From the NCBI GenBank assembly GCA_963969595.1, contig OZ018416.1, forward strand, positions 3,798,065 to 3,862,064: DNA of 64,000 nucleotides. The letters run 5' to 3'. The position numbers and the translations under genes are program-made. The stretch is from Neckera pumila. Taxonomy: Eukaryota > Streptophyta > Bryopsida > Hypnales > Neckeraceae. A model generated the notes under the pieces. It saw nothing but the letters and a program-made list of their open reading frames with translations, was not told where the DNA came from and searched no databases. The stretch's first letter is position 1. The number at the start of each line of letters is the position of its first letter. Shown one piece after another: positions 25,315-62,960 of the stretch.

Positions 25315-26250
25315 TTCACCCTTAAAGGACCGGCATGCATTTTTTGGCTGCACAGAAATTTTGGGCAAGTATGTGTGACTAGAGATTTCCATATTTTAGG
25401 CTGAAATTTTAGTAGAAGGTAGGCGCAAGGAATATCTTTCATGTGCACCAAATTTCATGACTTTTGTAATGTGAGTCAAAAGTTATGGCCTAATATATTT
25501 TGTTTTTTTTGTAACTGGGCAGTCTAGGTAGATCTAAAAAAAATTCTTTTTTCAAAAACAAAAATTTGAAATTGATTTTCTAGAGTTATATATACATAAA
25601 AAACTTTGAATTATCCCATTTTGATCAATGAATAAAAAGTTATGAAGATTTTAAGTTTGCAAGCAGTTATGGAAAATCTACTCTAAAATAAACCTTGAAC
25701 TCTTTTATCTTACTCAAGTTTTCAATATTTTTTGAAAAAAATAAAATTATAGGATGTAGATTATTTATTACAACATTGCAACCATTGGGATTGGCCTTTT
25801 TTCAATTCTATAATTAAGTTCTTAACAATTTAGTATTTTGAATCATTGTCTACTACTAGCTACTTACTGTATTTTTCCTATATGTTGGACAATTCCAAAT
25901 GACATGAAAAATTTCATGCATGTAGCCAGCTTATCTAGGAAAAAGAATTCAAAGAAACACCACCATTTTGGACATTTTTTCATCAAAAACTGAGCTTGTG
26001 AAGTGCTGCTGCCCTGTTTTTTGCAGGGCCAAAAAAATGGTTTCAGTGAATTTGAATGCTTATATCTTGCAATCCATGCGGTGGAAATTTCTTAAATTTT
26101 TACTATATATTCTCAAGTCAACATACTACAAGATCCTATGGTTACATGTGTCAAAAAAAAGTTTTTTTCAAAAATTGTGTACTTATACTAAAAATGACAG
26201 TTTTTGAGCATTTTTGGTGAAAACATAGTCATGGAACTTTAGGGGTTAAT
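25315..26250 (+). mobile_element. TTAA element, family 1 (A to B)
   Basis: 936 bp. The left end is worn (TTCACCCTTAAAGGACC) and the right end intact (CTTTAGGGGTTAA). End A carries TTTTGGGCAAGTATGTGTGA; end B carries AAAATGACAGTTTTTGAGCA, the degenerate form of the GAAATGGCAGTTTTGGAGCG block of other copies. The interior holds the modules containing GAGTCAAAAGTTATGG and AAAAAGTTATGAAG. No coding potential. Confidence 0.8.
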
Positions 26251-27122
26251 TGTGGAGTAGTGAAAATGGATGTGTATTTACTTGCTCAAAGTCACTAATC
26301 CCTAATTTTGATCAATTAGTTGTCATGTCACTTGTATTTGTCCTTCATTCGAAGATTCCTCAAATTGTTTATCAAGATTGAAATGTCGTTTGAAAAAATC
26401 TTAATAACATGAACTATTATTAGAATTATTCATAAAGTATCCAAAATTGGGATTTAAACCCCGCAGTTTTGTGAAAAAGCAAGTTTTGGGCAAAACGTCA
26501 ATATGAAAGTGGATATCAAACTTTCTTTCGTGCCCAAATCGACCAAAAAGAAGTTTCGTCCAGACTTTGCCTGCGGGATCATCCGTCGGAGGAAATTTGT
26601 TGGAAAAAGTCCCCTCCAAACTAGGGGGACTTTACGAATAACTCTATTGTATATATAATGCCTAGGGATATTTCTTCAAATTTCTTATCGCACAATCCTT
26701 TTTTGGTTCCAATTTCTTTAGTTATGCTTGTTTGAATTTTTTTCAATCTACCAACCTTTGCAACGGTCAAAACATGTACGGAGTAGCATATTACATACTA
26801 CTACAAGCATTTGTACTAACTAACAAGTCATGGAGCAGTGAGGTTGGTTATAAATATAAATGAATTATTCATAGCAATATATCCTATGAAATTTAAAATC
26901 TTTTAGAGCTACTCATTTTGGTTGATGAGGTTTCTAGGTAACACGAAAGTATATGTTGCATAAAGGCAACCTGTGAAGAATGGACTTTTGAAAAATGACC
27001 TTTCATCCATGTTGACTTTTCATATGCTACATGACACTTGAACAACAAATTTGGACGTTGAAATTTCAATGCCTAAAAGTATTATTTTTCTTGATCTTCT
27101 TTTCACCATGGCAGCATACAAT
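26251..27122. other. AT-rich intergenic
   Basis: No gene seen. A palindrome AGTCCCC...GGGGACT lies at 26609-26632. A minus-strand frame of 72 codons at 26401-26619 resembles no known protein. Confidence 0.45.
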
Positions 27123-27156
27123 TTTTTCTTGAGATTATTATTAATCTCAAGAAAAA
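27123..27156. other. Perfect 15 bp hairpin
   Basis: TTTTTCTTGAGATTA pairs with TAATCTCAAGAAAAA across a 4 nt loop. A partial third copy of the stem sequence (ATTGAGATTTTTC) follows at about 27170. Role unknown. Confidence 0.6.
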
Positions 27157-27568
27157 TCCAACTCAATTATATTGAGATTTTTCAACACTTGGGGGTATGA
27201 TTTTATGAATTTAAAAGTTGAAAACAAAGAGTGCCTCTATATGAGTAGTCAATTCACCTTAAATAGATATTGAAGCATCAGAAATTGTTTCAACTCACAT
27301 TAGCGTGTTAAGCAAATATTATAATTCTTCAAGCTTTTCATTGGACCTGTGTAGAAAATATTGAAGATCATGGTGAAGATTATACAAAATAGATATATTA
27401 GACTTCTAAGTAGCTTCTTGCAACAGTAGTTTTTGGCACCCCCAGTCTTGTAGGGGGATAAGTAATAATTGAGTACAATTAGTGCTCATGCCAAGAAAAT
27501 AATTGTGACTCAAACTTGGTGGAAGGAAAAGACCATTAAGGTAGGCTTGAGTTCTTAAAGTGACTATT

Positions 27569-27796
27569 TAATCCCTAAACGTCTCAATCCTTTTCTAAAT
27601 TTTTGCACGTTTTTGCTTAAATCTTTATACAGAAATACCATTTACCAAAATTTCATGAATTTGATCATTATGTAAGGTTGTCTTTTCTAGACTCAAGTAT
27701 TGCATTGGATGAATGAGAAGTTTGTAGGATGAAATAGTGCCTTGAAGTTATCTCTTCATCGTCCAATATATGGACGTCGGAGCTCTTAAAGGTTAA
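27569..27796. mobile_element. Possible degenerate TTAA element
   Basis: Begins TTAATCCCTAAACGTCTCAA, which fits the left end of the TTAA superfamily, and could end at GAGCTCTTAAAGGTTAA. The interior does not match other copies clearly. Repeat X starts at the same TTAA (27793). Confidence 0.3.
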
Positions 27797-27990
27797 GAAT
27801 TGATTGCCTCTTGGAAGAAGCTAAACTCCTTGAAACAATTCTCAATAATTTTTTGTAAGAAGAAAATGGAATTGGCATTTAACCCAAGTCAATTCATATT
27901 TTTTGGACCTTTGTGGGATTAGTTACAAATTTTTGAAGTTGAAATGCAATAGTCACTAAAAGCGACCACTTCCTTAAATGTACACTATTG
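27793..27990 (+). repeat. Repeat X, copy 1
   Basis: About 200 bp related to 54505-54690 (plus) and 59755-59974 (minus). It starts TTAAGAATTGATTGC and includes GAATTGGCATTTAACCCA, GGACCTTTGTGG and AAATGTACACTATTG. Every copy abuts, or lies within about 10 bp of, a TTAA element or candidate. Confidence 0.6.
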
Positions 27991-31926: not shown

Positions 31927-32492
31927 AATATTTTTAAAGTCCCAAAGTCCCTATGGGGGACACTTGGGATTTCAGGTAACTTTGCTTGGTCTCAATTTTT
32001 GAACCTTTTTAGGAAGAGGAAATCGTATTAGCTTTTTGGGAATATAATTCATATTCCAATTGGTGCCCGGGAGCAAAAGTTATGCTATTATAAGTCCAAA
32101 AGCAACTTGAGGGGCAGCCCAAAAAAAATCACAAAAAAAAGATTTTTTTAATTTTAATTTTAATTTCTCAAAGATTGTATTTTTGTCTACATTTGAAGCA
32201 TTGATTCATTCTATTTGGGCTAGTGATGAGAAAGTCATGGACAATCTTGTTTTTCATAAAATCTAAGCATGTTCTTGAAAAAATTTCTTATCTGACTTTT
32301 GAATGCTAATATCTTCCAATCTGTACAATCAAATTTGATGAAATTTTTACCACATGATCTCAGACTAGTAAAGTACAAGATCCTACAATTAGATTCTAAA
32401 AAAAAATTCTGCTTTCTTAGGTGAATGCAATAGAAATGTCAATTTTGAGTGTTTTTTGACAAAAAAAAGGCCTCGGAATTTTAGGGGTTGAA
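31927..32492 (+). mobile_element. TTAA element, family 2 (A to B), short form
   Basis: 566 bp. The left terminus is worn (AAAGTCCCAAAGTCCC) and the right end reads TTTTAGGGGTTGAA. It carries TTGGTGCCCGGGAGCAAAAG with the AGTTATG module, GGACAATCTTGTTTTTCA, and the end-B block GAAATGTCAATTTTGAGTG. Confidence 0.75.
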
Positions 32493-32640
32493 AACAAAAT
32501 AATACTCATATAACTATTCTTCATACTTGTACTAAGTTTTAAACCAGGATTGGTAAGAAGTGAACTTAAGATCTTGAGCCCATAAATCTAGGCACCTATG
32601 TTATAGGCACCTTCAATGGTTGTAAAGTACCTACTTACAC

Positions 32641-32847
32641 TTAGGCTCAAGGCTCATAAGGGCACATTTTTAGGTTCACATGCGAATGTCGATGAGCATA
32701 AGATTGTTTTTTAATTTTAATTTTTTAAAATTTAAAAAAGTATCTTAGGCTCAAGGCTCCTAATGTCACATTTTTAGGTTCACATGCTATCGTCGATGAG
32801 CATAGGATTGTTTTTTTTATTTTTTATTTTTTAAACTTAAAAAAGTG
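32641..32847 (+). repeat. Tandem duplication, 104 bp unit
   Basis: Units 32641-32744 and 32745-32847 both start TTAGGCTCAAGGCTC and contain CACATTTTTAGGTTCACATG and CGATGAGCATA, followed by T-rich then A-rich tracts. Confidence 0.85.
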
Positions 32848-32917: not shown

Positions 32918-33562
32918 TTAACCCCTAAATGCCCAAGGCACCCAAATCTGGTGTTTGCAAAACTTTGAAGTTGAATAAAATCTAACCAAGTTGCTATTTT
33001 TAGTAATTTATATTTTTAGAAAGTTCTTCTTGAAGTTTAATTTTAGCACCAAAAATCCGATCTTGAAAATAAATGATAGTGATTTTTCTATTCAAGTTTT
33101 TGTACAAGGGTACCCATTGCAATCTTGACTTCATGTAGTGCTAAGAGCTCTTGGAAATGAGCCTCAAATACACTAGATCTTGGAGAAAAAATCACATTCA
33201 AAATTCATTTAAAAAAATTATAGAGTAGATTTTAAGAAGCCATAAATTGATTGAGGTTATACAAGTTAGGCCCTTTAACTTTATATTTTTTTGGTCACCA
33301 ACTTTTTAGATATGATTTGTATAAAGAAGATTGAAAGACTTTTACAGTTTTAGCACCCCCATGGTCAAACATTATAATCTTTCACTCCATAAGTGACATT
33401 GTTGTGATTTCTTTTCCGATGAGATCTCTAATGTGTCCACTTTGAATTTGTACGGTTACAATTCAAAAAAAATTGATACAACTTATCGAAATGTTGGCAT
33501 TTTGTTCAATTTAGAGCAAATTCCAGGAAGCCCAAAATAGGCCTTGGGCGTTTAGGGGTTAA
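32918..33562. mobile_element. TTAA element, family 3
   Basis: 645 bp with 22 bp terminal inverted repeats and one mismatch: TTAACCCCTAAA, then T or C, then GCCCAAGGC on both ends. The interior is diverged from families 1 and 2 but keeps AAATCTAACCAAGTT near one end and an AATTTGCTCTAAATTG block near the other. No coding frame. Confidence 0.85.
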
Positions 33563-33949: not shown

Positions 33950-34900
33950 TGAACCCCTAAAGCCCTGAACATGCTTTTTTGAGAATATAGCGTTTTTGGG
34001 AAGCTCACTACGAGCGGAGTTTTTAATTTTTTTCTTTGAAATTTTCACACAACATTTTCCCGAGGAGTAGCTTTAAGGCCCAACAATTTTCATAACTTTT
34101 GACTACATGATTAAAAAGTTATTGCATGATATGTCATTTTCATTGCTTGGCGGGCAGCCCGGGCAGCAAAAAAAACTTCGTTAAAAATCACTTCTTAAGA
34201 AAATAAAAAGATGAAATTGGTTCTTTAGATTTATATGTACTCGGGAAGCTTTGAATCATTCCATTTGAATTAACGAGTCAAAAGTTATCAGGATTCTTAG
34301 TTTAGGGTAGTTTATGGGTAGTTATGAAATCTCTACTCTAAAATAAACTTTGAAGTCCTTTATCTAACTCAATTTTCAATATTTTTGAATTAAAAAAAAA
34401 ACATTGGGTGTATATTGTTTATACAACATAAAACCGTTGGCATTGGCATTTTTCAGTTTCATAATTAAATTCTTGACAATTTAGTATTTTGAATCATTCT
34501 CTACCTCTTCCTACTTACTATTTTTTTCCTATATGTTGTACAATTCCAAATGATTTGAAAATTTTCAAGGATGTAACCAACTTGCTTTGAAGAGTGAATC
34601 CAAAGAGTAACCACCATTTTGGACATTTTTCCATTTAAATGTGACCTTGTGAAGGGCAGCTGCCCGGATTTTTGCAGTGATTAAAAAGGGACTTTTGTCA
34701 ATTCAAACGCTATTATCTTGCAATCTACATGGTGGAAGATTCTGAAATTTTTTCCCCATCTTCTAAAACCAATGTACTACAAGATCCTACAGTTACATGT
34801 GTTGAAAAGTGTTTTTTTTCTAAAATTTGATACTTGTATTAGAAATGGCAATTTTGAAGCGGTTTTGGTGAAAACATAGTCAAAAACCTTTAGGGGTTAA
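33950..34900 (+). mobile_element. TTAA element, family 1b (A to B)
   Basis: 951 bp. Left end TGAACCCCTAAAG, right end CTTTAGGGGTTAA. Shares with 50858-52308 the end-A variant GGGAAGCTCACTAC and GAGGAGTAGCTTTAAGGCCC. The interior has GCGGGCAGCCCGGGCAGC and the module around GAGTCAAAAGTTATCAGG. Confidence 0.85.
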
Positions 34901-35180: not shown

Positions 35181-38100
35181 ACCCTATTTTGGGATAGAAA
35201 ACAAGTCAGTAGAATATTCAATTGTTGAATAGATAACATTCTTTATCATTAGTATTAAGGTCCACTTTAATTTCAAGATAATGCACGAATTAAGGAGAGA
35301 ATGAAGTGATGTGGCCAAAGTTTTTGAGTTGAAAGATATAATCATTCCTTTCTGTCATCTCCTATTTAGAAGGGACAATGTTTTTGGAATATGTAGTCAT
35401 CTATTTAGAATGTTTTATAGTCATCTACTTAAAATGTTATGTAGTTGAAAAGCAACAACAATTTTGATTCCAAGTATTAGTCATATTAATCCCAAAAGCA
35501 AAGGACTCTAATTTATGTACTATAGTAGATAAATTACAAAATTGTCTCTATTTTTTAGTAGATAAATTTGGTATTCTTCCATCTCCTTGCCGGATTGTGG
35601 GATCCAAGGGAGATTTCAAGTTTTCTGAATTTGATCTTCGAGTGGTTAGTATTTAATTCAAGTGTGTTTTCTAGAGGTGAAGAAAGTTGTTAGTTTTTTG
35701 CGTAGCCAGTTTATAGAAGTACAACAATGATTGGGGGTATTGTTTGGGTGATGAAGAAATTCAATTATGGTAATGTGAAGGTGACGGCTTTCTAACATGA
35801 TGGCTCTTAGTAAAGTACTTCTCTATTCAACTTATTATTGAGGGGGTATGTGATACAATGAATGTTTTTTGTTAATATACATTAGCTGGATTTTGGATTC
35901 ATTGTCCTTTAAAATATTTTGGATTTTAGATACACTTATGAAATCCTCCTACCTTCACCATTGGAAGTATTGCTAATTCATTGTGCCTTTAAATCTAATT
36001 CTAACACAAGCATATCATTTTAGATGCAACTACTACCTACCCTCTTAAATTGGCCAAAATGGCCCACTAAACTTTACTACTTTGTATTTCACAAAATATA
36101 AATTTGAATCACCTTCAAATTGGATTGGACTTCATTTATATACTACAAAGTATTTAATACAATAACCTAGTTAGAACTTCTATTTCTAAATTTATATTCA
36201 AACCATCTTTCATAAGATTTTTTCAAGTTTTACCTTCTAAAGAACCAACAAGTCCAGTTGAGGATTTTTCAAAACTCGGGTAAGTTCTATTGACTTTGTA
36301 TTTTGGAAATTTTAAATGAAATATTTAGTATGGATGCTAGTCATTGTAGTATGCATGCAAAAATATGTTTCAAGTCATTCCAATACATATTGTAAATATT
36401 ATAAGGCTTTGTCTAAATATATTCTAAAAGTATGAAATAATTTCATTAATTATATAGGTTGATACCTACTCAAAAACATTTGAACCACTCACTTCCAAAT
36501 AATAATTAAAGGTGAAAGTTTTAAAGGAGTTTTATTTTAAAGGCAATTATTATGAAGAGCACTAACATGTTTTTCAAAGATTTTGCTTCATATCCTACTT
36601 AGGAAAAAAATCACAATATTTGTTTTTAGCTATGAATGGTACTTTATGATATTGTCTTTGATGTCAAAGGTGAAAATTGTCTGTTTTTACACTTTATAAA
36701 GAATATGATCTTGTCTTACATTCCTTCTCCCCAATGCTTTTGTTATTCTTTACACCTATAAGATAAAATGTTTCAAGGAAAAACAAACAAAATGAAACCC
36801 TCAATTTATCAAGACATCTGGGATATTTAAATCTATCTTCAGTTTTAGTTTATTTAATACATCAATCGTCCTAAAATTGCAAGGCCAAATCTTCTCAAAT
36901 GATTAAGTTTTCATCTCTCAACTTTTTAATTTAAAAAAGTGCATGTCTTATTTGGAAAATAAGCTGAAAATACATTTTAAAATATCAAACCAAAAAGACT
37001 TTCAAATTCACTATTAAAAAATATTATGTAACAAATTGACAAAATACACTATATTGCTAATAATTTAATTATGTATAATTACAAATTATTGATCCAACAT
37101 TGAGAATGCTGTAATTAGCAAATTTTCTCTTATCTTTTTTATTGTTTTTTCTTAGAAAATATCCATAAATGCCCACAAATAAAATTCCTTGTGAAAACTA
37201 TTCCGCTTGAAAACTACTCTTTGACCACATGTTGGAGAAAAACATTTAAAATTTGAGAGTTGTACTCATAATTGAATGACTGAAAACGCTATCTTGTAAA
37301 AAATGCTACTTTGTCCTTTCAAGATTAAAAATAAAAACGTGACAATTGCAATGACTCAATCACATTGAAAGAGAGTGATGTATGTATATTACATTGCACT
37401 TGACATACATATATATATATATATTAATGATGAATAGTAAGTGTGTTCATACTACATATCAAGTCACAAATTAGTAAGGTTAATAATACAAAACAATTTG
37501 CATGTACCATTGACAAGAACTTTAGAATATTGATAATTCATTACATGAAGTTACATTTTAAGCATTCCAATCATTTGATTAAGCCCTTCAATTAAATCAT
37601 GAATTTTTTTCATTTTCTTTTTATCTTCTATATTCTCCAATACTACCAAAGTGTCACTTTCGCATGTAGAATTTAGAGCATTGCAACTAGTACATTAAAA
37701 AATTGGATGAAATGCATGCAATTAATGCTTTTATCCACCTTTGTACTTAATTTTTCCACAACAAATGAGCAATTTTTATCAAGGTTTGTAACACTTCCAA
37801 ATTTATTTACTTTTTCTTGAAATTTAGTACATTGGCATAAAAAGTAATAGATTCTTATTTATTTTTGTTCACTAGGGAGACTTGCAATGGCTTATAAGTT
37901 CATATAGTAAGTTGTTGCAATGGTGTAAATAAGTAACAGACCTTGTAAACAATTAACTCTCCTTTTTGACTTGATGATACTATTGTAGTGGAGACTCAGG
38001 CTATGTAGACTAGAAAATAACTACAAGAAGGCACATTGGTAGTCAAGTTTGTCATGTGGGTTTTCATGTGGGTCCTTTTCTTGGTATATGTAACCTAGTT

Positions 38101-38868: not shown

Positions 38869-39838
38869 TTAGCCCCTCACCGCCCAAAGTCCAACCGGCT
38901 TAAAAAATGCTTGCCTTTGCAAGTCTGAAAAGTCAAAATTAGAGTGAGGTATGAAGATCTCAACCGTACAATATTGTAGTGTGTATGTTTTAGACGGTGT
39001 GGAACAAATTTGGGGTCATTTGACCGTTTAGATTGAAAGATTATAATGTTTTAGTGTTCAAAAAAGGTGCTGAAATTTTCTTAAAAACACATTTGGAGGT
39101 GAAATTCAATTTCTAACCTACTCAAATGAAAAACCTTTAAGCTACAAAGTGACTCAAAACCATAATATAAACACTTTGGTGAAAAGAATTTCATAAAAAA
39201 TGAATCATTGTGTCTACAAAATGGATTGAAATGTCCCAAAACAGTGAAAAAAGGAGCAAAAAATCACATCTACAATTGAACCTCCTTCTACTAAAATGCT
39301 TCTCAGACAATCAAAACTTCTTGGATTGATATGAAATTTTAGCCACAAGAACTTGACAAGTATACGCAACTTCCCCAACAAGAATTTTTGAAAGAAGATC
39401 ATGTATGAAGTAGTTATGAGCCGCCGAAGTTGACTGAAATGCAATAATATCTGGATTTTGAACTTTGAATTGCTCCCAAGAATTCAAAACAACTTGGATT
39501 GGCATGAAAATTTTACCACAATAACTAGACCTTAAAAGGAGTATAAAATCCAACAAATTTTTATTGAAAACGAACATTTCTGGAAAAAGATACAAGCCCC
39601 CAAAGTTGCATTTATCACAATGTAGTGTGCAGAACAAAAATTGACCTTGTGAACTTCGAATGGCTCTCGCAAACTCAATTCGTCTTGGATTGATCTGAAA
39701 ATTTTACCATAGAAATTAGACTGGTATGCGCAACTTTTCCGACAATTTTTATTGAATTCGAACATTGGATGCAAATGTTATAGTGCTTCAAAGTTTGTGT
39801 GGGGACACTTTTCGTCCTCTTGGGCAGTGAGGGGTTAG
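38869..39838. mobile_element. TTAA-like element, family 4 (TTAG ends, tandem modules)
   Basis: 970 bp. Ends TTAGCCCCTCACCGCCCAA and, reverse complemented, CTAACCCCTCACTGCCCAAG, a diverged form of the TTAACCCC ends. The left part keeps the shared block CCGTACAATATTGTAGTG and TTTGACCGTTTAGATTGAAA. The right half is three tandem modules of about 150 bp (about 39300-39425, 39470-39600, 39636-39790), each with GGATTGATATGAAATTTT or close variants and GACAAGTATACGCAAC-like text. Overlapping minus-strand frames reflect the modules, not genes. Confidence 0.7.
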
Positions 39839-41227: not shown

Positions 41228-42155
41228 TTAACCCCTAATGTTCCATGACTATGTTATCACCAAAAACACTCCAAAAGTGCATTTCTAATACAAGTACCAA
41301 GTTTTTGAAAATAAACATTTTTTGGACGCATATAACCATAGGATCTTGTAGTATGCTAACTTAGAAAACATGTGGAAAAAATTTCAGAAATTTCTACTAC
41401 GTGGATTGCAAGATATGAGCATTCAAATTTCTTGAAATCCTTTTTTTGGTCCTGCAAAAAATAGGGCAACTGCACTTCACAAGGTCACATTGGAATGAAA
41501 AAAAGTTGAAAATGGTGGTGCTTCTTTGGATTCATTCTTCAAGTCAAGTTGGCTACAAGCTAGAAAAATTTAAGACCATTTGGAATTGTACAACATATAG
41601 GAAAAAAATCGTAAGTAGAAAGAAGTAGGGAATGGTTCAAATTACTAAATTATTAAGAATTTAGTGATAAAAGAGTGAAAAGTGCCAATTCCAATGGTTG
41701 CAATGTTATAATAAACAATCTACATCTTATGATTTTATTTTTTTCAAAAAAATGTTGAAAATTGAGCTAAATAAGGACTTTAAAGTTTATTTTAGAGTAG
41801 CAAACCTACTTGCAAACTGAAACTCCTCATATTTTTTCATCTCATTGATCAAAATGGAATGATTCAAAGCTTTCCACATATATAAATCTAGAAAACCTAT
41901 TTCAAATTTTTTTCTCTAAAAACATTGATTTTTAAAAATCTTCTTGGATTGCCCATTCACAAAAAAAAGTAATATATTAGGCCGTAACTTTTATTTATGT
42001 TTCCAAATGTCATGAAATTTAGTGAATATGAAAGATATTCCTTGTCCACACCTTTTAAAAAAATTTTGGCCTAACATATATAAATCTTCATTCAAACGAA
42101 CCTATCCAAAATTGCTATGTAGCCAAAATATGTAGTTTGGTCCTTTAGGGGTTAA
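41228..42155 (-). mobile_element. TTAA element, family 1 (B to A)
   Basis: 928 bp with TTAACCCCTAA at the left and CCTTTAGGGGTTAA at the right. It is reversed relative to the copy at 47846: end B (CCATAGGATCTTGTAGTATG) comes first and end A (TTGGTCCTTTAGGGG) last. No coding frame. Confidence 0.87.
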
Positions 42156-42385: not shown

Positions 42386-43544
42386 TTAACCCCTAAAGGA
42401 CCAAAGCCATTTTTCTGCCAAAAATCACTCAAAACTGCCATTTCTTTAGCAAGGAGTATAAAAAATTTGAAAATTGTACTTTTTTCACATCTAACCATAT
42501 GCTCTTATACTTACCTAGTACGACAATATGTGGAAAAAATTTCAGAATTTTTGACCTTACAAATTGCAAGATATTTGTGTTTAAAGTGAAAAAAACAAGT
42601 TTTTCAACACATTGCAGGACTAAAATATTTGACTTTCAATCTTCTGAACTTAAAATTTTTGCACACTACAACCTTTTGAGCTTTAAGTCTTTATGGTAAA
42701 GAATTAAGTTGAGATTCTAGAAAAAAAAATTCAAAAAGACTTCATTTTTATTCTTTAAATATTATTAAGTAGAAGTAAATACAAGATAGAAAGAAAATCA
42801 AAATTATAAACCCTAATTGCTCAAAAAACAAGATTGTCCATAAATTTCTCATAACAGATCCAAATGGAACAAATCAAAGCTTTCCATGCTGACAAAAATT
42901 TATCCTATGAGAAAAAAATTGAAATAAAAAAATTCCAAATTTTAAAATTTTTTTAGTTCGCCCCTCTCCCTGGTTTTGAGCTTATTTGGGCATAACTTTT
43001 GTTCCTACGCACCAATTGAAAAAAAAATTATATAAGGTAGAAGCACCAATAGTCGATCATTTAAAGAGTTTTGGAATAGATTGTGTGCAGTATGAGGTGG
43101 TGGAATTTTTCCCATGTAGAAAGATAAGAAATATGGAGATTGCAAAATTTTCACAGTTTAATTTCCAAAATTGAAATTACAGTAAATTTTGGGAGCCAAA
43201 AAGTGCATTTCTCTAGTAGGCAATATCTAGAGTCTTTCAATTCCAATAGTTCAAGGATGCTCACTATTTCAAGACATGTGTCATAACCATATTAGTTCCA
43301 ACCTTGAAAAGGACTGAAAACCAACACTCCAAGCCTGGTTTCCAACCTAAGGTTGGAAACGGCGCACCCTATAGGTTGGATATTGGGCGTGGTTGACAAC
43401 TGGTGCTTCTACCTTATCCATGAAGCTCATCAATTTTTCTATTTTAAAAAAAAATAAAAAAAAAACATACAAAAATTTAGCCCGTGGATATTTGCTCAAA
43501 ATCCCAAATGTCCGCCGAACGGACAATGGTCCTTTAGGAATTAA
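42386..43544 (-). mobile_element. TTAA element, family 2 (B to A), with a nested insertion
   Basis: 1159 bp. Left TTAACCCCTAAAGGACC, right GGTCCTTTAGGAATTAA. Near the left: AAAATCACTCAAAACTGCC; near the right: GGGCATAACTTTTGTTCC and ACGGACAATGGTCC. The extra length relative to 44097-45048 is largely due to the insertion at about 43035-43418. Confidence 0.85.
43035..43418. mobile_element. Nested element with GGTAGAAGCACCA ends
   Basis: About 380 bp inside the TTAA element. The left end AAGGTAGAAGCACCAATAG and the reverse complement of the right end AAGGTAGAAGCACCAGTTG form the inverted termini. Homologous copies at 56957 and 60764 lack it (they run directly from AAAATTA to the AAGCTAAT block), which gives natural empty sites. 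No coding frame. Confidence 0.65.
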
Positions 43545-43699: not shown

Positions 43700-43715
43700 A
43701 AAGTAGTCCACTATT

Positions 43716-44096: not shown

Positions 44097-45048
44097 TTAA
44101 CCCCTAAAGGACCATTGCATTTGGGGGACAAATGGATATTTTGGGCAGGTACCTACGGGCTGAAATTTTATCCTGAGTTTTGAAATATTTTTTTGAAGAC
44201 AGAAAAATTGATTAGCTTCATGAAAGTGTGTACATTTTTTCCATCGGTGCCCGGAAACAAAAGTTATGCCCCAAACAGCTCGAAACTTGGAAAGGAGGGA
44301 GAGAGGGCAACAAAAAAAAATTTGAAAAATTTGAATTTTTTTTTCAATTTTTATCCCCATAGATTATATTTTTGTCTTCTCATAGATTATATTTTTGTCT
44401 ATATGAAAAGCTTTTATTCATTCCATCTGGATTTGTTGTGAGAAAATTATAGACATCCTTGTTTTTCAGGCAATTAGAGCATCTTTTTGAAAAAATGACT
44501 TATAGGATTTCTTTTTTAATGCAAATTTTATGATTAAAAAAATAAAAAAAATTCACATGGTTTCTTTTGCTTGCGAGAACAATCTCACCGTTGGTGCATT
44601 TTAATTCCATCTTAGAGATATTAATAATTTAGATTTTCCTTCTATTTTGTACCTACTTCTACTTAAAAAGAATTTAAAGAATGAAAATTAAGTTTTTTTG
44701 AAATTTTTTTTTCCCCTAGACTCTAAACTTAATTTGGCACCACAAAGATTTAAAGCTCAAAACTTTGTAGTGTAAAATAGTAAAGTTAGAAAGGTTTAAA
44801 GTCAAATAATCTAATCTTGCAATGTGCTGGAAAACTTGATTTTTTCACTTTAAATACAAATATCTTGCAATTTATGCGGTAAAAGCTTCCAAAAAAATTC
44901 CATACAATTTTATACTAATTATTTGTAAGATCCTACAGTTAGATATGCAAAAACAAATCTTTTAAATTTCTTTCTACTCTTTGCTATTGAAATGGCAATT
45001 CTGAGTGTTTTTTGGCAGAAAAAAGGCCTTGGTCCTTTAAGGGGTTAA
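44097..45048 (+). mobile_element. TTAA element, family 2 (A to B)
   Basis: 952 bp, ends TTAACCCCTAAAGGACC and GGTCCTTTAAGGGGTTAA. Inverted relative to 42386-43544. It has CGGTGCCCGGAAACAAAAG with the AGTTATG module, a 21 bp tandem duplication of CATAGATTATATTTTTGTCT at about 44359-44400, and the end-B block. Confidence 0.87.
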
Positions 45049-45337: not shown

Positions 45338-46260
45338 TTAACCCCTAAAGTTCTATGACTATGTTCTCATTGAAAAAGCTCAAAAACTGCCATTTTTAGT
45401 ACAAATATCTAATTTTTGAAAAAAACTTTTTCGACACATATAACCGTAGGATCTTGTAGTATGCTGACTTGAGAACATATGGTAAAATTTCAGGAATTTC
45501 CACCACATGGATTTCAAGATATAAGCATTTGACTTCACTATAACCATTTTTTGGGCATTGCAAAAAACATCACTTCACAAGCTCACTTTTTGATGAAAAA
45601 ATGTCCAAAATGATGGTGTTTCTTTAGATTCTTTTTCCTAGACAAGTTGGCTACATGCTTGAAAATTTTCACTTCATTTGGAATTGTACAACATATAGGA
45701 AAAAAATAGTAAGTAGATAGTAGTAGAGAATGATTCACAATACAAAATTGTCAAAGAATTTAATTATGGAATTGAAAAATGCTAATCCCAATGGCGACAA
45801 TGTTGTAATAAATAATCTAAATCTTGGGATTTTATTTTTTTCAAAAAGTATTGAAAATTGAGTAAGATAAAGGACTTCAAAGTTTATTTTAGAGGAAAAA
45901 ATCCATAACTGACCGCAAACTTAAAATCTTCATAACTTTTGACTCATTGATAAAAATAGGATGATTCAAAGCTTTTTACCTACATATAACTCTAGAAAAC
46001 TAATTTCAAATTTTTGTTTTCAAAAAAAGTGATCTTTTCTAATCTGCCCGGACTGCCCAGTTACAAAAAAAAGTAACTTTCTAGGCCATAACTTTTGACT
46101 CGTATTTCCAAATGTCATGAAATTTGGTGCATATGAAAGATTTTCCTTGCCCCCACCTTCTATTAAAATTTCAGCCCAAAATATAGAAATCTCTAGTCAT
46201 ATATACTTGCCCAAAAATTCTATATGGCCAAAAATCACATGTTGGTTCTTTAGGGATTAA
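45338..46260 (-). mobile_element. TTAA element, family 1 (B to A)
   Basis: 923 bp with left end TTAACCCCTAAAGTTC and right end TTCTTTAGGGATTAA. End B (CCGTAGGATCTTGTAGTATG) first; end A (TTGCCCAAAAATTC) last. The middle carries CCCGGACTGCCCAGTT and GCCATAACTTTTGACTCG. Confidence 0.87.
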
Positions 46261-47845: not shown

Positions 47846-48777
47846 TTAACCCCTAAAGGACCAACATGCGATTTTTGGCCGTATAGAAATTTTGGGCAGG
47901 TACGTGTGACTAGAGATATCCATATTTGAGGCTGTAATTTTAATAGAAGGTGGGGGCAAGGAATATCTTCATGTGTACCAAGTTTCATGACATTTCAAAA
48001 TACGAGTCAAAAGTTGTGACCTAATATGTTACTTTTTTTCGTAACCGGGCAGTTTGGGCAGATAAAAAAAAATCATTTTTTCTGGAATTTTTTTTTTGAA
48101 ATTGGTTCTCTACATTTATATATACTTAAAAAGCTTTGAGTCACTCCATTTCAATCAATGGGTCAAAAGTTATGAGGGTTTTTGGTTCGCGGGCAGTTAT
48201 GGATTCTCTACTCTAAAAAAAACTTTAAAGTCATTTTTTTAACTCAATTTTCAATATTTTTGGAAAAAAATAAAATCCTAGGATGTAGATTGATTATTAC
48301 AACATTACAACCGTTGGGATTGGCATTTTTAAATTCCATGATTAAATTTTTAACAATTTAGTATTTTGAGTCATTTTCTACTTCTTTCTACTTGCTATTT
48401 TTTTCCTATATGTTGTACAATTCCAAATGATGTGAAATTTTTCATGCATATAGACAACTTGTTTAGGAAACTGAATTTAAAGAAGCACCACCTTTATCGG
48501 CATTTTATCATTGAAAAGTGAGCTTGCAAAGTGCAGCTGTCCGGTTTTTTGCAGGATTGAAAAAATGGTTTTCAAGACTTTGAATGCTTATATCTTATGA
48601 TCCACACGGTGGAATTTTCTGAAATTTTTACCACATGTTTTCAGAATATCATACTACAAGATCCTACGGTTACATGTGTCAAAAATTGTTTTTTTCCAAA
48701 AATTTGGTAGTTGTATTAGAAATGGCAGTTTTGGAGCGTTTTTGGTGATTACATAGTCGTGAAACTTTAGGGGTTAA
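47846..48777 (+). mobile_element. TTAA element, family 1 (A to B), well preserved
   Basis: 932 bp with intact ends TTAACCCCTAAAG and CTTTAGGGGTTAA. Almost base for base the same as 61734-62660, the closest pair in the window by eye. Layout: TTTTGGGCAGGTACGTGTGA, ACGAGTCAAAAGTTGTGACC, CGGGCAGTTTGGGCAG, GGGTCAAAAGTTATGAGGG, GCGGGCAGTTATGG, CATACTACAAGATCCTACGG, GAAATGGCAGTTTTGGAGCG. No open frame of note. Confidence 0.92.
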
Positions 48778-50857: not shown

Positions 50858-52308
50858 TTCACTCCTAAAGGATCAAACAACTTTTTTTTGGCAACATAGC
50901 AATTTTGGGCAGCTCACTACAAATGGAAATTTTATTTTATTTCTTTGAAATTTTCACATAACATGTGCCCAAGGAGTAGCTTTAAGGCCCAACAATTTTC
51001 AAAACTTTTGACTATATGATTAAAAAGTTACTGGATAATATGTCATTTTCAACGGTCGGCGAGTAGCTCAATTTTTTTTTTTAAATTCACCTTTAAAAAA
51101 ATAAAATTTGAAATTGGTTTTCTAGATTTATATATATGTGAAATTCTTTTAATTATTTCATTTTGATTTAAGAGATGAAAGTTATGAGGTGTTCTAGTTT
51201 GCAGGCAATTATGGATTCCCTGTTCTAAAATAAACTTTGAAGTCCTTTTTTTAACTCAATTTTTAATATTTTTTGAAAAAATAAAATCACAAGATGTACT
51301 TCCTCCATTCCAAAATGATTGTCCATTATTTCAAATTTAGTTATATAAAGATGCAATTCATGAAATAATTAGTATGTCACAATAAAAATTTTAGTTAGAT
51401 GAAGACACAATTCATAAAATAGTCAATGCCAATTTCACAAAGATACAATTCATGAAATAGTTAGGTTTAGTTATATAAGCTACTTACAACAAGTTGCTCA
51501 AGAAAAATCTAACCGTAATCTATCTTCACAAAATCTTCACATGGTACAAAGACAAGATGGAAAACAATGTGTTGCCATGCTTAGTATTAATTTTTGGTGG
51601 GAAATCGTAAGCTAGCGGGTGATTTATCTTAAGAACTTGCAACCTCAATTTTTCCGCTTTAAGTAGTTCATACTTTAAATTGATATTGCCATTTTTGCAA
51701 ACCGCTGAGCAAATTAAGAATTAATCTACATGTTTGCATTCATTACTTTATCAAATTTTCAAATTTCACCTTAATCTTGAGAAAAGTTTTCCATGGGACA
51801 ATCATTTCAGGACGGAGGGAGTAGTTTGTTTATTACAACATTTCAACCATAGGAATTGACATTTTTCAATTCCAGAATTAAATTCTCAAAAATTTAGTGT
51901 TTTGAATCATTCTCTACTTCTTTCTATCTACTATTTTTTTCCTATATGTTGTACAATTCCAAATGATCTAAAATTTTTCAAGCATGCAGCCAACTTGCTT
52001 TGATGAATGAATCTAAAGAGTAAACACCATTTTGGACATTTTTTCATACAAATGTGACCTTGTGAAGTGCAGCTGCTCGTTTTTTGTGCAAGGCAAAAAA
52101 AAAAAAATTTTGTCGATTCAAACGCTGCAATCTATAGAATGGAAAATTTGGAAATTTTTCTACATCTTTTCAAACCAGCTTACTACAAGATCCTACGGTT
52201 CCATGTGCCCAAAAATGTTTTTTTTTCTAAAAGTTTGATACTTATACTAGAAATGGCAGTTTTGGAGCGATTTTGGTGAAAACATAGTCTCTGACCTTTA
52301 GGGGTTAA
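50858..52308 (+). mobile_element. TTAA element, family 1b (A to B), carrying a Stowaway MITE
   Basis: 1451 bp; the element is about 925 bp without the insertion at 51299-51821. The left end is worn (TTCACTCCTAAAGGATC), the right end intact (CTTTAGGGGTTAA). The interior matches 33950-34900 (GGGCAGCTCACTAC, AAGGAGTAGCTTTAAGGCCC). Confidence 0.85.
51299..51821. mobile_element. Stowaway-type MITE (Tc1/mariner)
   Basis: 523 bp, flanked by TA (51297-51298 and 51822-51823). Ends CTTCCTCCATTCCAAAATG and, reverse complemented, CTCCCTCCGTCCTGAAATG, the Stowaway consensus CTCCCTCCGTCCCAAAAT with few changes; the repeat extends on through ATTGTCC. Homologous TTAA elements show the unoccupied site (GGATGTAGATTGATTATTAC in 47846-48777). 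Imperfect internal repeats contain ATGCAATTCATGAAATA. Confidence 0.93.
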
Positions 52309-53518: not shown

Positions 53519-53690
53519 TTAATTCCTAAAGGATTGTTGTCCCTTTGAGAGACAAATGGGAATTACGGGCAAGTACCTACTGAAATTTTGTCCTGATTTT
53601 TTGAGACTTCTTATGAAAGATAGAAAAAATGATTTGCTTTGTGGGAATATATATATTTTTCAATCAGTGCCTAGGAACAAAAGTTACTTT
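53519..53690 (+). mobile_element. TTAA element, family 2, end-A fragment
   Basis: Starts TTAATTCCTAAAGGATTG and continues like the end-A part of family 2 up to TGCCTAGGAACAAAAGTTAC, after which similarity stops. No right end. A short CCTAACCCTAACCCTAA stretch follows at 53709-53725. Confidence 0.65.
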
Positions 53691-53982
53691 AGTCTTGTAA
53701 CTCTAAATCCTAACCCTAACCCTAATAAGGTATGTGGACCTCGGATTGGAAGTTGAAATGAATGCTATCTGCACATTTTAGATGTCAGTTTTGAGTGCAC
53801 CGACATACCTTGGTTCCAATCTGGACGCTGAAGCACACATTCTCAGATCTGGGACTCATATTAAGTTATAGTGTGGTGCTCATTGCTCTCTCAGGTGGTC
53901 CAAGCATCAAATGACAAAATCCTAGAGAAAAATCTTGTACATGTACGACTTCAATCAGGCATGAAAATTTCCCATCTTCAAA

Positions 53983-53994: not shown

Positions 53995-54074
53995 TTCCCA
54001 TCTTCAAATCTGCTGCAGAATTGCTGTGACTGGTGTATTTGAGTTATCTGAGTGGATGCTCTTCAAGCGATCAA

Positions 54075-54508
54075 TTAACCCCTAAGTGGTTTTGAGGACA
54101 CATTGTGTCCTCTGGATTCATACATGACCCGTTTTCGCCAAATACTATGAAGTATTGGTCAAATATGTAAACTACAAAATCGAAGTGTAATAGTCATTGA
54201 TTTTCATATGTTTTTAGAAAAATATTGTGATGCTTGTTGTTGAAATGAGATGATGTCAAAAATGCAAAAGTGTGTATTTTTAGAGAAATACGTGTATTGG
54301 AGATACAACTTCACAATATTTACAAAATTAGTAACATGTCCAATGTAGCCAAAAAGTGTGTAGTTCGATAGAAGACTTCAATGCGCATTCAACAATAAAT
54401 AAATAAAAATTAAATGGATAGTACACCATTCACATGTAAGGTTGCATACATTGCCCTTACTGTATATACAGATGCCTTGAAAGACACCCAAAACCACTTA
54501 GGGGTTAA
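54075..54508. mobile_element. TTAA element, family 6, compact with perfect 20 bp ends
   Basis: 434 bp with perfect 20 bp terminal inverted repeats TTAACCCCTAAGTGGTTTTG. The interior does not resemble families 1-4. Repeat X begins at its right-hand TTAA, so the element appears to have landed on that TTAA. No coding frame. Confidence 0.9.
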
Positions 54509-54690
54509 GAGCTGATTGACTGCCTTTGGGGGAAGAAAAAATAGAATTGGCATCAAACCCAGGTCGTTTCATATTTTTGGGACCTTTGTGGAGTTTTTGA
54601 AGTTGAAACATACTGGTCATTAGAAGCGACCACCTTTTCAAAAGTACATTGTTGGTTCATTGAAGAAAGCAAAATGTTCATGTGTCATGT
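54505..54690 (+). repeat. Repeat X, copy 2
   Basis: Starts TTAAGAGCTGATTGAC; shares GAATTGGCAT.AA.CCCA, GGACCTTTGTGG, AAGCGACCACC and AAAGTACATTGTTGG with the other two copies. Confidence 0.6.
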
Positions 54691-56511: not shown

Positions 56512-57094
56512 TTAACCCCTAAAGTCCCAAGGCCATTTTTCTGTCAAAAATCACTCAAAACTGCTACTTTTGTTGCGTTCATCTAAAAGATCAGAAATTT
56601 TATTTTCTTTAGAAACTAACTGTAGGATCTTATACTACACTTTTTACAGATCATGTAGTAAAAATTTTGTGATGTTTGACCGTACGGATTGAAAGATATC
56701 AGCATTCAAAGTGAAAGAATTTTTTTTTTCAAGAAGATGCTCTAATTGCCCGAAAAACAAGATTGTCCATAACTTTCTCATAAAAAGTCCAAATGAAATG
56801 AATCAAAGCTTCCCAAATAGGCAAAACTATAATCTATAAGGAAAAAAAATCAAAAAAATTTAATTTAATTTTTTGCAAAATTTTTTTGCTGCCCCTTCTC
56901 CCTGTTTTGAGCTTATTTGGGCATAACTTTTGCTCCCGGGCACCGATTGAAATAAAAATTACATTCCCCAAAAGCTAATAAGTTTTTCTATCTTATGTAA
57001 AAGTTTCAAAAAATTTCATTAAAAATTGAGCTCATAGGAACCTGCCCAAAATCCATTTTGTCCCCCGTAGGGACAATGGGACTTTAGGGGTTAA
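56512..57094 (-). mobile_element. TTAA element, family 2 (B to A), short form
   Basis: 583 bp with perfect ends TTAACCCCTAAAGTCCCA and TGGGACTTTAGGGGTTAA. It lacks about 330 bp of the central part present at 59984-60894. Modules GGGCATAACTTTTGCTCCCG and GATTGTCCATAACTTTCTCA are clear. Confidence 0.92.
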
Positions 57095-57268: not shown

Positions 57269-58469
57269 TACGTAGCTTAATTCTAGGTAAGGGCGCATAC
57301 CCTTAGCTTAATGTGTTTGATGCATCAAAACCAAAGTACACATAATACTTTATCTTATAATCATTCAAATAATCATTCAAGCATAATATATAATCTTCCT
57401 TCCCCTGTGTTCCATGATTATGTTCTATCAAGTTTCACTCCAAAATTGCTTTATCTAGTACCAATATAAAGTGCAAAAACACTTCAAAAAATATGTATGC
57501 ATAATTGCATGATCTTATATGTTGCTAACATGACAATGTGTGCAAAAATATCTAAAAGCTTTGACCTACTGGTGGTAGATTGCAATATAGAAGTGTTCAC
57601 AATGAAAATATATATTTTTTGGTACTTTTCTATTCTAGATTGTTTGACTTTAAATCCTCTTAGCTTCAATGTTTTGCACTACAAATTTTGAACACTTTTT
57701 TTAATGTTAGAGAGTTGTGTTGTAAATGTAGATTACAATATTAGGAAAAAAACACTTGGCTTCTACATTCTTAAGAAAATTGTCATGTACAATTAGGTAC
57801 AAGATGGAATTGAAAACAATAATTTAAAATTTAAAATTTGTGAGATTGTTGTACCAAGCAATCCATGCTTTGTGAGACTTTTTGTTTTGAAATTGTGAAA
57901 CCTAAATTCAAAAACAAATTCTATAAGCTATTTTTCAAGTCTCATGATTTGATTACCAACAAATCTATACACTTTTAAATTTCGACATCATCAATCCAAC
58001 TGTAATTAATCAAGAACTTTCATGCACATATAATTATATTCTATACATTTGTTTATTTTAAATCAAAATCTTGAAAAACATTATTGTTGCCCAAATAGGT
58101 GTGACTATTTTTGCTCTGGTGGTATCACTTTTGCTATCACGCATCAATTGGCAAAATAATCCCTCTTGGAAAACTAATATGTCACCATACCTTAAAAAAT
58201 TTCAAAAAAGTGCACTTCAAATTGTGATCATAGGTACAAGCTGGATTTGATTTGTCCACTAAGTGGACAAGTGGTTATTTAGTAGTTAAATTACTTTGAT
58301 GTTTTGTAAAATGTTTTGGAAATTGAAAGCCAATTCCAATATATTTTAGAACAATGTATAAATGAATTTAAAATTTGATAAAAAACTATAAATTTATAGC
58401 TTAATGTCATGTTGAAAAATTCTCAATAATAACATGGGTAAATAACTCCTTTGTTGTCAACATTAGAGA
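57269..58469. other. AT-rich intergenic; possible degenerate TTAA element
   Basis: Around 57410-57610 the text (CCATGATTATGTTCTATCA, GCATGATCTTATATGTTGC) weakly echoes end B of family 1, suggesting a very old copy; no ends can be assigned. No gene seen. Confidence 0.35.
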
Positions 58470-59754: not shown

Positions 59755-59974
59755 AAGTAGGGTGCTTTGAAAGCAACCACTAATACAAAGGTACATTTTA
59801 CCTCCTTCAATGTACCAATAGTGTACATTTTTAAAATTTATAACTAATTTCATGAAGGTCCCCAAAAAATGAAATGACTTGGGTTAAATGTAAGTTTCAT
59901 TATTCTTCTTACAAAAATTTATTGAACATTATTTCAAAGAGTTTTGCTTCTCCCAAAATGCAATTAGCTCTTAA
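59755..59974 (-). repeat. Repeat X, copy 3
   Basis: Reverse orientation; on the minus strand it begins TTAAGAGCTAATTGC and contains ACATTTAACCCAAGTCATTT, AAATGTACACTATTGG and CAAAGCACCCTAC. It lies about 10 bp from the TTAA element that starts at 59984. Confidence 0.6.
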
Positions 59975-59983
59975 AAGGTAGCT

Positions 59984-60894
59984 TTAATCCCTAAAGTCCC
60001 AAGGTTTCTGTCAAAAACAACTCAAAACTATTGTTTTGGCTGCGTTCTCCAAAGAACACAAAAATAACATTTTCTTAGAATCTAACTGTAAGATCTTGTA
60101 CTTCACTTGTCAAAGATCATGTGGTAAAAATTTCATGAAGTTTGACCGTATAGATTGGAAGATATTAGCATTCAAAGTTGAAAAAGAAAGTTTTTTTGAA
60201 CATTGGCCTACAATTTCAGATGACTTTGACCGCTATTTGTGGAAATTTTTTGCACTGCAAACTTTGAATTAAATTTTTTTAATGTTGAAGATGTAAGTTG
60301 AAAGTCTACAAAAAAAATTCAAAAAAAGCACACTTGATTTTCATTCTTTAAAAAATTATTAAATAGAAATAAGTCCAAGATTGGAAAAAAAAATCGTTAA
60401 TAGTTCTTAGATGGGATTGAAATACAATAATCCCGATGGTGAGATTGCTTTAGAAAGCAAACACAACAATTTTTTTTTTAAACTGTAAAAATTGTGAAAC
60501 TTGCATTTAAAAATGAATCCTATAAGTTATTTTTCAAAAAGATGCTTAAATTGCCCGAAAAACAAGATTGTCCATAACTTGCTCATTATTAGTCCAAATG
60601 AAGTGAATCAAAAGCTTCACATGTAGACAAAAATATAAAGTTTCAAAGAAAAAGAAATTAAATTTTATTTTGACTTTTTTGCAAAAAAAAATTGTGATGC
60701 CCAGCGAGTTTAGTTTGAGGCTTTTTGTGGTGTAAATTTTGCTCCCGGGCACCAATTGAAATAAAAATTATAGTCCCACGAAGCTAATCAGTTTTTTCTA
60801 TCTTATGGAAAAGTTTCACTAAAAATTGAGCCCATAGGTACCTGCCCAAAATCTGATTTGTCCTCTGAGGGGACAATGGGACTTTAGGGGTTAA
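59984..60894 (-). mobile_element. TTAA element, family 2 (B to A), long form
   Basis: 911 bp. Left TTAATCCCTAAAGTCCCA, right TGGGACTTTAGGGGTTAA. Same ends and modules as 56512-57094 plus the central region (about 60200-60530). Confidence 0.9.
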
Positions 60895-60922
60895 GAGCAG
60901 ACTACCTTGCACACAATCTTGT

Positions 60923-61177
60923 ATGCACTACACACCTAACGTCTTCAAAGGGCCTCTTGCCATGCTCCACCGGTGGGTAGAAACAACAAGAAGAATTTCA
61001 CCAAATGTTTTGCCCGAGTGGGTGATTGAAAAAATACTATTTCATGTTTTACCGAAATTGGTCGACAACCCCCATTGGTCAAGAATCAATACAAATAGAA
61101 TTCTTAGTAGATACCTACTCATCGGCCGTGTCCCCATGATAGTGCAATTGCTCAATTTGGACCCTGTAACCTTGTAG
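60923..61177 (+). pseudogene. Unidentified open frame, possible gene fragment
   Basis: 84-codon frame just right of a TTAA element. The stretch LPEWVIEKILFHVLPKLV followed by a Trp resembles, weakly, the GCFC region of TFIP11/STIP-type splicing proteins, where LPxWxxxxIL...LPKL precedes W-x-P. The rest does not fit and no exon context is visible. It may be a retroposed or captured scrap, or chance. Confidence 0.25.
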
Positions 61178-61537
61178 CTCTCCCTGTGAACTTTGCCCAT
61201 AGATGGAGCATGGCAGGCCCTAAGGTTCAGAGTCAATGCCCTTTCCCAGTTTCAAGGGGAGGGGAAAAAAACTCCCAGCAAAAGTTATTTTTTTATAGCT
61301 TTACTATTTAAATTGGTTGCAACATGATTTGACCATTAAGTTTATATTCCATTGAAGAACTTGTTCAGCTTTGATTTTTGAGATCATGTGATGAAGCAAC
61401 AGTGATGGCTGGGTGGGTGGGTGTAAAGTGATTGGAGTTGCTGCCTATCCATTCCATTCAGACAATAACTTTTGTACCAATTTCGGAAAGCATGGGTATC
61501 GGTCTCCGCCTCTCCGGGACTGTGACGGGTTGCAAAC
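61178..61537. other. Intergenic, moderately GC-richer
   Basis: No gene recognised. Contains a GGGTGGGTGGGTG run at about 61411-61423. Confidence 0.4.
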
Positions 61538-61733
61538 TTAACCCCTAAATGCTCAAGGCCTTTTTTTTTAATGAAAAAACACACTCAAAATTGTCATTTC
61601 TATAGCAAAGAGGAAAAAAAATTGAAAATTTTCTTTTGGCACATCTAACTGTAAGATCTTACACCTATCTAGTATAAGAATGTGTGGAAAAATTTCAAAA
61701 TTTTTGACCGCAAAGATTGCAAGACATCTGAGT
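61538..61733 (-). mobile_element. TTAA element, end-B fragment cut by a second element
   Basis: Starts TTAACCCCTAAATGCTCAAG and runs like end B (AACTGTAAGATCTTACACC, TTTGACCGCAAAGATTGC) up to the TTTAA where the next element begins. The remainder of this copy is not found after 62660. Confidence 0.75.
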
Positions 61734-62660
61734 TTAACCCCTAAAGGATCAACATGCGTTTTTTGGCCGTATAGAAATTTTGGGCAGGTACGTGTGACTA
61801 GAGATATCCATATTTGAAGCTGAAATTTTAATAGAAGGTGGGGGTAAGGAATATCTTCATGTGTACCAAGTTTCATGACATTTCGAAATACGAGTCAAAA
61901 GTTGTGACCTAATATGTTACTTTTTTTTGTAACTGGGCAGTTTGGGAGATCAGAAAAAATCATTTTCTCCGGAATTTTTTTAAAAATTGGTTCTCGACAT
62001 TTATATATATTTAAAAAGCTTTGAGTCATTCCATTTCAATCAATGAGTCAAAAGTTAGGAGGGTTTTTGAACTGCGGGCAGTTATAGATTCTCTACTCTA
62101 AAAAAACTTTAAAGTCGTTTATTTAATTCAATTTTCAATATTTTTGGAAAAAAATAAACTCTTAGGATGTAGGTTGATTATTACAACATTTCAACCGTTG
62201 GGATTGACATTTTTAAATTCCATGATTAAATTTTTAACAATTTAGTATTTTGAATCATTTTCTACTTCTTTCTACTTACTATTTTTTCCTATATGTTGTA
62301 CAATTCCAAATGATGTGAAATTTTTCAAGCATATAGACAACTTGTTTAGGAAACTGAATTTAAAGAAGCACCACCTTTATCGGCATTTTTTCATTGAAAA
62401 GTGAGCTTGCAAAGTGCACCTGCCCAGTTTTTCACAGGATTGAAAAAATGGTTTTCAAGACTTTGAATGCTTATATCTTATGATCCATACGGTGGAATTT
62501 TCTGAAATTTTCACCACATGTTTTCAGAATATCATACTACAAGATCCTATGGTTTTATGTGTCAAAAATTATTTTTTTCCAAAAATTTGGTCGTTGTATT
62601 AGAAATGGCAATTTTGGAGTGGTTTTGGTGATTACATAGTCATGAAACTTTAGGAGTTAA
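61734..62660 (+). mobile_element. TTAA element, family 1 (A to B), well preserved
   Basis: 927 bp with ends TTAACCCCTAAAG and CTTTAGGAGTTAA. Near-identical to 47846-48777. It starts at the TTAA inside the end-B fragment to its left; in intact copies the same place reads GTTTAAAGTG. Confidence 0.92.
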
Positions 62661-62960
62661 CCCTTAAACGCCCAACGGGGGTGGGGTCTTCAAGATTGAG
62701 CAAAAAACAGCCGTTTTCTTATAAAAAGTGTAAAAAAATTTAAAACATTTTTTTCAAAAATCTAACCGTTGGATCTTATTTAGGGTGGTCTGTATTTCTT
62801 ACCCTGAAAATTTCAAGGCATTTGACAGCACGGATCTTCTGTAAAGTAGTATTGAAGGTCAATTTCAAAACATTTCAGTGCAAAACGGGAACAGGCAGCT
62901 TGCATTTCACAGCCAATATCGTCTTCAAATAATTTTGAAATGCTAGCATTTTTGGACAGG
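62657..62960. mobile_element. TTAA element, family 5, left part
   Basis: Begins TTAACCCTTAAACGCCCAAC and shares its TTAA with the preceding element. It keeps the shared end-B plan (CAAAAAACAGCCGTTTTC, AATCTAACCGTTGGATCTTA, TTTGACAGCACGGATCTTCT). No right terminus could be found, so the end given is approximate. Confidence 0.6.

Follow-up and report, generated by a model that had tools for sequence, protein, structure and literature searches.

In the available extracts of the published accounts, on which our comparisons with described transposons rest, the piggyBac element of Trichoplusia ni carries a 19-bp repeat that spans bp 17-33, is palindromic and is bound by the CRD dimer, its groove narrowing being centred near bp 25. 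The palindromes of piggyBat are unrelated in sequence and lie on one end only. Of the duplications made by the Daphnia piggyBac Pokey, 88.13% are TTAA and 0.85% are CTAA; among its miniature inverted-repeat transposable elements (MITEs), about 23% of copies sit in a TTAA adjoining another copy. Here we describe a dense population of elements with TTAA at most of their ends in 64,000 bp of DNA from Neckera pumila (contig OZ018416.1, positions 3,798,065 to 3,862,064, forward strand; hereafter the window). The best reading, as yet unproven, is that these are non-autonomous TTAA elements moved by a piggyBac-type transposase, to which we assign a probability of about 0.73. The elements are of a known kind; their host and their density are unusual.

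Copies in the window were collected by tip-pattern search, self-BLAST and profile hidden Markov models (HMMs). The tips read TTAA followed directly by CCCCTAAAGnnCC, and the paired end motifs of the family are TTAACCCCTAAA...TTTAGGGGTTAA. With at most one mismatch, TTAACCCCTAAA occurs 28 times in the window, whereas 100 shuffles gave 0.80 on average and never more than 6. The census gave 20 full or partial copies (E01-E19 and a TTAG-flanked copy; Table 1) between 25.3 and 62.9 kb, in both orientations and 0.17-1.45 kb long (0.23-1.45 kb where both ends are present), and a 21st copy, a degraded end that was detected by HMM alone. The 20 copies total 14,981 bp, or 40% of 25315-62960, with several borders approximate. 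No TTAA element was found by BLAST or HMM in the first 25 kb of the window, where TTAA occurs at 4.52 per kb versus 8.82 per kb in the remainder. The elements are confirmed as a real repeated family, as first observed. The original prediction had counted at least 17 copies, a number now raised to 20 plus the relic; the six end families that it named are all present in the end table, and the common plan of an A end, a B end and AAAAGTTATG modules is borne out by alignment.

Type I (E01, E05, E06, E09, E10, E11 and E18) can be aligned over the full length; type II (E03, E07, E08, E14 and E16) also aligns from end to end, though with long gaps inside. A search with the type I profile gave full-length matches to E08 (44092-45053, E 5e-34) and E16 (59982-60901, E 8e-37); judged by sequence, the two types are homologous throughout. 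The TTAG-flanked copy shows B-module homology by HMM (E 8e-09). Kimura two-parameter distances among copies are 0.075-0.398 in type I and 0.281-0.487 in type II, and the families are therefore old and were active at different times.

The element bodies look non-coding. Decayed coding sequence was rejected: variable sites by phase were 0.479, 0.456 and 0.455 in six type I copies, without phase bias, and 1/89 short gaps in type I was a multiple of three. None of the 56 open frames of at least 70 aa between 24.5 and 64 kb (56/56 searched) matched a transposase in Pfam; two Pfam matches under the curated cut-off among these frames were to TM250 and TYA. A 130-aa frame in the TTAG-flanked copy, of a length unmatched in 200 shuffles, overlaps 75-bp internal repeats (family D20) and matched no Pfam family. 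The longest frames of E01, E07, E16 and E08 (shuffle P 0.03-0.06) and of E12 (P 0.04) likewise gave no transposase match. Known structured RNAs were rejected, no Rfam family reaching its gathering score, as were tRNAs in a scan with bacterial settings. The low coding capacity claimed originally is thus upheld by open reading frame scan, Pfam, phase and gap analysis, and within this window the evidence supports non-autonomous elements.

Over 33 tabulated ends, the four TTAA positions carry 1.67, 1.61, 1.48 and 1.80 bits of information and the position just outside (-5) carries 0.03 bits, some of the TTAA information being selection because the ends were partly found by motif. When the 14 type I ends were fixed by internal alignment, 11/14 read TTAA. 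TTAA at every junction, as the original prediction had it, holds exactly for 27/33 ends, including the B end of E08, and fails for six: four are one base off (E01 TTCA, E03 TCAA, E05 TGAA and E11 TTCA) and both ends of the CCCCTCACCGCCC copy read TTAG. Both borders are available for 16 copies, which comprise 11 with TTAA/TTAA, one with TTAG/TTAG, three with one base changed on one side and the degraded E03. The 4-bp duplication is seen more clearly in the TTAG copy, since TTAA reads the same on both strands; two parallel mutations are a possible but less likely source of the TTAG flanks. The CTAA of Pokey is TTAG on the other strand, and both oddities of Pokey, CTAA and a shared TTAA, occur here. 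TTAA-specific cut-and-paste insertion with a 4-bp duplication is well supported.

Empty sites were found within the window itself. A repeat, R, flanks E02, E13 and E16 in three copies, R1 (27520-27990), R2 (54040-54654) and R3 (59833-61000). It holds two nearby TTAA sites (GCTCTTAA...TTAAGAGC in R3), and every copy has been hit by a TTAA element. E02 lies in the second TTAA of R1 and E16 in the first TTAA of R3; with these two elements removed, R1 and R3 can be aligned through both junctions, and wherever one repeat is occupied the other has just one TTAA. Ranked among 914 TTAA flanks, with the compared flanks counted in, the R1 left flank matched against R3 is in the best 4. The second case is a nested insertion: E17 ends at GAGTTTAA exactly where E07 and E08 continue through TTTAAAGTG, and E18 occupies this native TTAA of E17, which is single and empty in E07 and E08. 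At the same site E03, E14 and E16 read TTCAAA; the remainder of E17 was not found downstream. The flank of E14 was rejected as an empty site and not counted, as it has GCTC|TTAA in common with E16 and the rest of R is absent. A single TTAA at empty homologous sites, the check originally proposed, was therefore observed in the window for R1/R3 and for E17/E18.

A known type of insertion served as positive control. E11 is broken by a 523-bp Stowaway-like MITE (CTTCCTCC...GGAGGGAG) that has TA on both sides and is missing from the six siblings of E11; since this insert was recovered with its TA and its empty siblings, the empty-site method works on a known type. The Stowaway tip motif is CTCCCTCC. 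Stowaway (Tc1/mariner) MITEs resemble the present elements as non-coding plant DNA elements and differ in these tips and in their TA duplication, seen also in the E11 insert, versus TTAA here.

The tips begin with CC, and in most copies the termini are CC...GG. When compared with six coral piggyBac tips, 16/35 tips were within 3 mismatches in 11 of at least one of them, versus 2/885 other TTAA-adjacent sites. The tip of E19 differs from coral AmiPB2 (CCCTTTAACGCCC) at 1/13 bases. The terminal inverted repeat (TIR) CCCCTAAAGTCCCA is present at both ends of E14 and at 13/14 in E16, and its 14 bp lie within the 12-19 bp of piggyBac TIRs; type I TIRs are imperfect beyond ~9 bp. Coral CMITEs and Daphnia mPok, as described in the extracts, share with these elements the TTAA duplication, short C-rich TIRs and a non-coding body. 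As here, internal DNA is conserved across CMITE families, and mPok inserts into a TTAA next to another copy, as do E18/E19. In contrast, CMITEs are ~100 bp and most elements here ~0.9 kb; 5/6 coral tips start CCCTT, whereas the present elements start CCCCTAAA; and the latter are in plant DNA, with no autonomous partner known.

A scan of 36 ends turned up a subterminal inverted repeat in eight elements, on one end each (E02, E07, E08, E12, E13, E14, E15 and E16); its arms are 5-9 bp long and its centre lies 24-26 bp from the tip. Single-end shuffles gave P values from 0.000 (E15) to 0.22 (E12). The arms are family-specific (TTGTCC, GAGGACAC, CGTCCA) yet still complementary. When the arms of these eight ends and of the A end of E03 were exchanged with one another, pairing fell from 55/71 to a mean of 38.0 (P 0.0002). 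This P value is optimistic, because the nine ends were chosen after the palindromes had been seen, the type II members are of common ancestry, and E08, the sole member of its class, was never swapped. Like T. ni piggyBac, these elements target TTAA, and eight of them have a palindrome at a similar distance from one tip, within bp 15-34. In contrast, T. ni piggyBac has the same 19-bp repeat at both its ends, while here each of the eight has a family-specific palindrome on a single end, and no transposase gene was found. B ends of type II at 56512-57094, 59984-60894 and 42386-45048 also show A/T-armed inverted repeats near 28 bp from the tip (ATTTTTCTGYCAAAAAT). A further-reaching idea, which we regard as tentative and more probably wrong than right, concerns a TTAA-specific transposase hosted by a plant lineage and belonging either to an undescribed piggyBac branch or to a new superfamily of TTAA elements. 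Over a long period such an enzyme would have mobilised several related non-coding families, recognising in some of them a family-specific palindrome of 17-19 bp placed 24-26 bp from one tip, and the two may have evolved together.

Several observations, besides the optimistic swap-test value and the negative Pfam search, weigh against a piggyBac-type mover. The CC[C/T]T motif of piggyBac is present in 3/35 tips (E01 A, E02 right and E19) and most tips read CCCC, although coral AmiPB4 (CCCA) likewise breaks this motif. Under the Repbase tip rule, given in the extract as at most 1 mismatch over positions 1-11, 1/35 tips qualifies (E19 versus AmiPB2) when six coral tips are compared. The palindrome at 24-26 bp is absent in 7/7 type I A ends, in which the best pairing (0.61) is centred at 20.5 and the arms are short. 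Arms of 6-7 bp, mostly A/T, occur elsewhere in seven other ends (E03 B, E04 right, E07 B, E08 B, E14 B, E16 B and E17 B), and type II B ends pair at 0.64 at centre 28.5 versus 0.54 for the nine ends at 24. The empty-site comparison for R2, which carries E13, is weak (37 of 914), its first site reading TTCA. Taken together, the piggyBac relationship claimed by the original prediction gains from tip polarity, tip similarity and the subterminal palindrome, and stays unproven, since no transposase was found in this window.

If a piggyBac-type transposase is the mover, each element would carry just the ends that the enzyme needs. A DDD transposase encoded elsewhere would bind the CCCCTAAAGnnCC tip with its core, and its dimeric C-terminal domain may bind the subterminal palindrome in some families. 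The transposase would then excise the element and reinsert it at another TTAA. Type I, type II and the subfamilies with CGCCC, GTGGTT and CACCGCCC tips would all have been mobilised over a long time, as the copies have diverged from each other.

TTAA is also used by Sola3, and its duplication is common to Kolobok and these elements. A transposase from another superfamily, be it Sola3, an undescribed plant TTAA group or, as third TTAA group, Kolobok, could thus be responsible, and it would fit the lack of a transposase in the window and the many tips that miss CC[C/T]T. We consider this unlikely. The position of the palindrome fits piggyBac. Kolobok was rejected for its terminal polarity: its 5'-RR...YY-3' termini, as described in the extracts, are the opposite of the CC termini here, and the best match to eight Xenopus Kolobok tips leaves 5-9 mismatches of 11 over the 35 tips.

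Tc1/mariner elements that duplicate TA with a strong preference for TTAA are a far less probable source. TA is the middle of TTAA and a Stowaway-like MITE does sit in E11, but the outer T and A are conserved like the inner TA, and the TTAG/TTAG copy repeats the outer bases on both sides. PIF/Harbinger elements, common in plants according to the extracts, duplicate 3 bp, and both TTA and TAA are contained in TTAA; such a duplication would leave unequal termini, whereas both tips here are symmetric around TTAA, which makes this origin very improbable. Mariner and Harbinger were rejected on the length of the duplication. A non-mobile origin through segmental duplications or satellite-like repeats is scarcely credible, for although numerous copies lie close to one another, their flanks appear unrelated apart from R, their borders are exact and the existing empty sites contradict it.

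Related sequence was also sought elsewhere. A chance frame of E01 matched two metagenome frames (P0137 and P0138; 67% and 66% identical), one with residues compatible with ACTTTAGGGGTTAAA, which shows that relatives of these elements occur in other sequenced DNA. Patterns 17-18 letters long also hit 28, 14 and 1 records among viral and prokaryotic contigs; because element profiles scored no better than E 0.095 on these 43 loci, the hits were put down to chance.

Outside the elements, a TatA/Hcf106 frame and retroelement domains lie within the first 25 kb. In the retroelement at 6763-10178, the pieces that resemble protease, RT, RNase H and integrase fall in different frames, and a 445-bp repeat (4175-4615 and 10715-11153, 89% identical) may represent its long terminal repeats. 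Among the 120 protein matches to this retroelement listed out of 1915, none carried the name of a plant. The frame at 18815-19180, which we take to be part of TOPLESS (probable exons), matched no Pfam family and 16 similar metagenome proteins by protein search. Two tandem 104-bp units, 87% matching, lie at 32640-32846, and a related stretch at 32589-32657 is inverted at 34966-35035. CCCTAAA is the plant telomere unit; a short telomere-like run (cctaaccctaaccctaa) lies at 53700-53730 near the broken end of E12, and the element tips contain CCCTAAA, probably by chance. Homopolymers comprise 11 C at 40392-40402 and 25 G at 49096-49120.

Table 1. Elements, repeat R copies and the nested MITE, in window coordinates.
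Feature	Position	Strand	Type	Flanks and remarks
E01	25315..26249	+	I	A to B; flanks TTCA/TTAA
E02	27568..27796	.		229 bp; TTAA both sides; within TTAA site 2 of R copy 1; palindrome centre 25 bp from right tip
R copy 1	27793..27990	+		right of E02; left part directly before 27568
E03	31927..32491	+	II	degraded A end; right flank TTGA
E04	32918..33562	.		TTAA both sides; tips CCCCTAAATGCCC / CCCCTAAACGCCC
E05	33950..34900	+	I	flanks TGAA/TTAA
Relic	37189..37331	-	I, A end	HMM, E 2.2e-07
TTAG copy	38869..39838	.		CCCCTCAC tips; TTAG both sides, a non-TTAA 4-bp duplication
E06	41228..42155	-	I	TTAA both sides
E07	42386..43544	-	II	TTAA both sides; A-end palindrome; internal TTAA empty, matches E17/E18 site
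E08	44097..45048	+	II	TTAA both sides; internal TTAA likewise empty
E09	45338..46260	-	I	TTAA both sides
E10	47846..48777	+	I	TTAA both sides; nearest to E18 (7% different)
E11	50858..52308	+	I	flanks TTCA/TTAA; broken by Stowaway-like MITE
Stowaway-like MITE	51299..51821	.		in E11
E12	53519..53690	+	II	A-end fragment
E13	54075..54508	.		434 bp; TTAA both sides; tips CCCCTAAGTGGTT; within TTAA site 2 of R copy 2; 19-bp palindrome near left tip
R copy 2	54505..54654	+		right of E13
E14	56512..57094	-	II	TTAA both sides; 14-bp TIR CCCCTAAAGTCCCA; 19-bp palindrome
E15	57424..58289	-	II, diverged	19-bp palindrome near A tip; degraded B end
R copy 3	59833..59983	-		adjoins E16; site 2 empty
E16	59984..60894	-	II	TTAA both sides; within TTAA site 1 of R copy 3; 19-bp palindrome
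E17	61538..61733	-	II, B end	ends at own internal TTAA, where E18 starts
E18	61734..62660	+	I	TTAA both sides; at native TTAA of E17; one TTAA common with E19
E19	62657..62911	-	B-end part	tip CCCTTAAACGCCC; other end not found in window

The original prediction described piggyBac-type insertion as little documented in land plants, a statement that holds in part. It agrees with the extract of a 2008 paper, which describes just five superfamilies in plants, piggyBac not among them, and with two plant genome tables whose extracts give PiggyBac at trace level only; the extract of a 2023 review, in contrast, lists PiggyBac as one of seven angiosperm MITE superfamilies. A literature search for piggyBac-like elements with land plants and TTAA returned no match, and among the papers on TTAA target-site MITEs returned by a second search that included plants, none was about plants, judged by title. 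TTAA-specific elements seem to be rarely reported in plants, and a region that is 40% TTAA elements suggests that in some plants the class has gone unnoticed or been classified as unknown. End recognition can be put to the test, because the palindromes vary in sequence yet keep their symmetry. If the partner transposase were identified, it would tell whether piggyBac ever reached land plants, and it might yield a footprint-free transposon native to plants.

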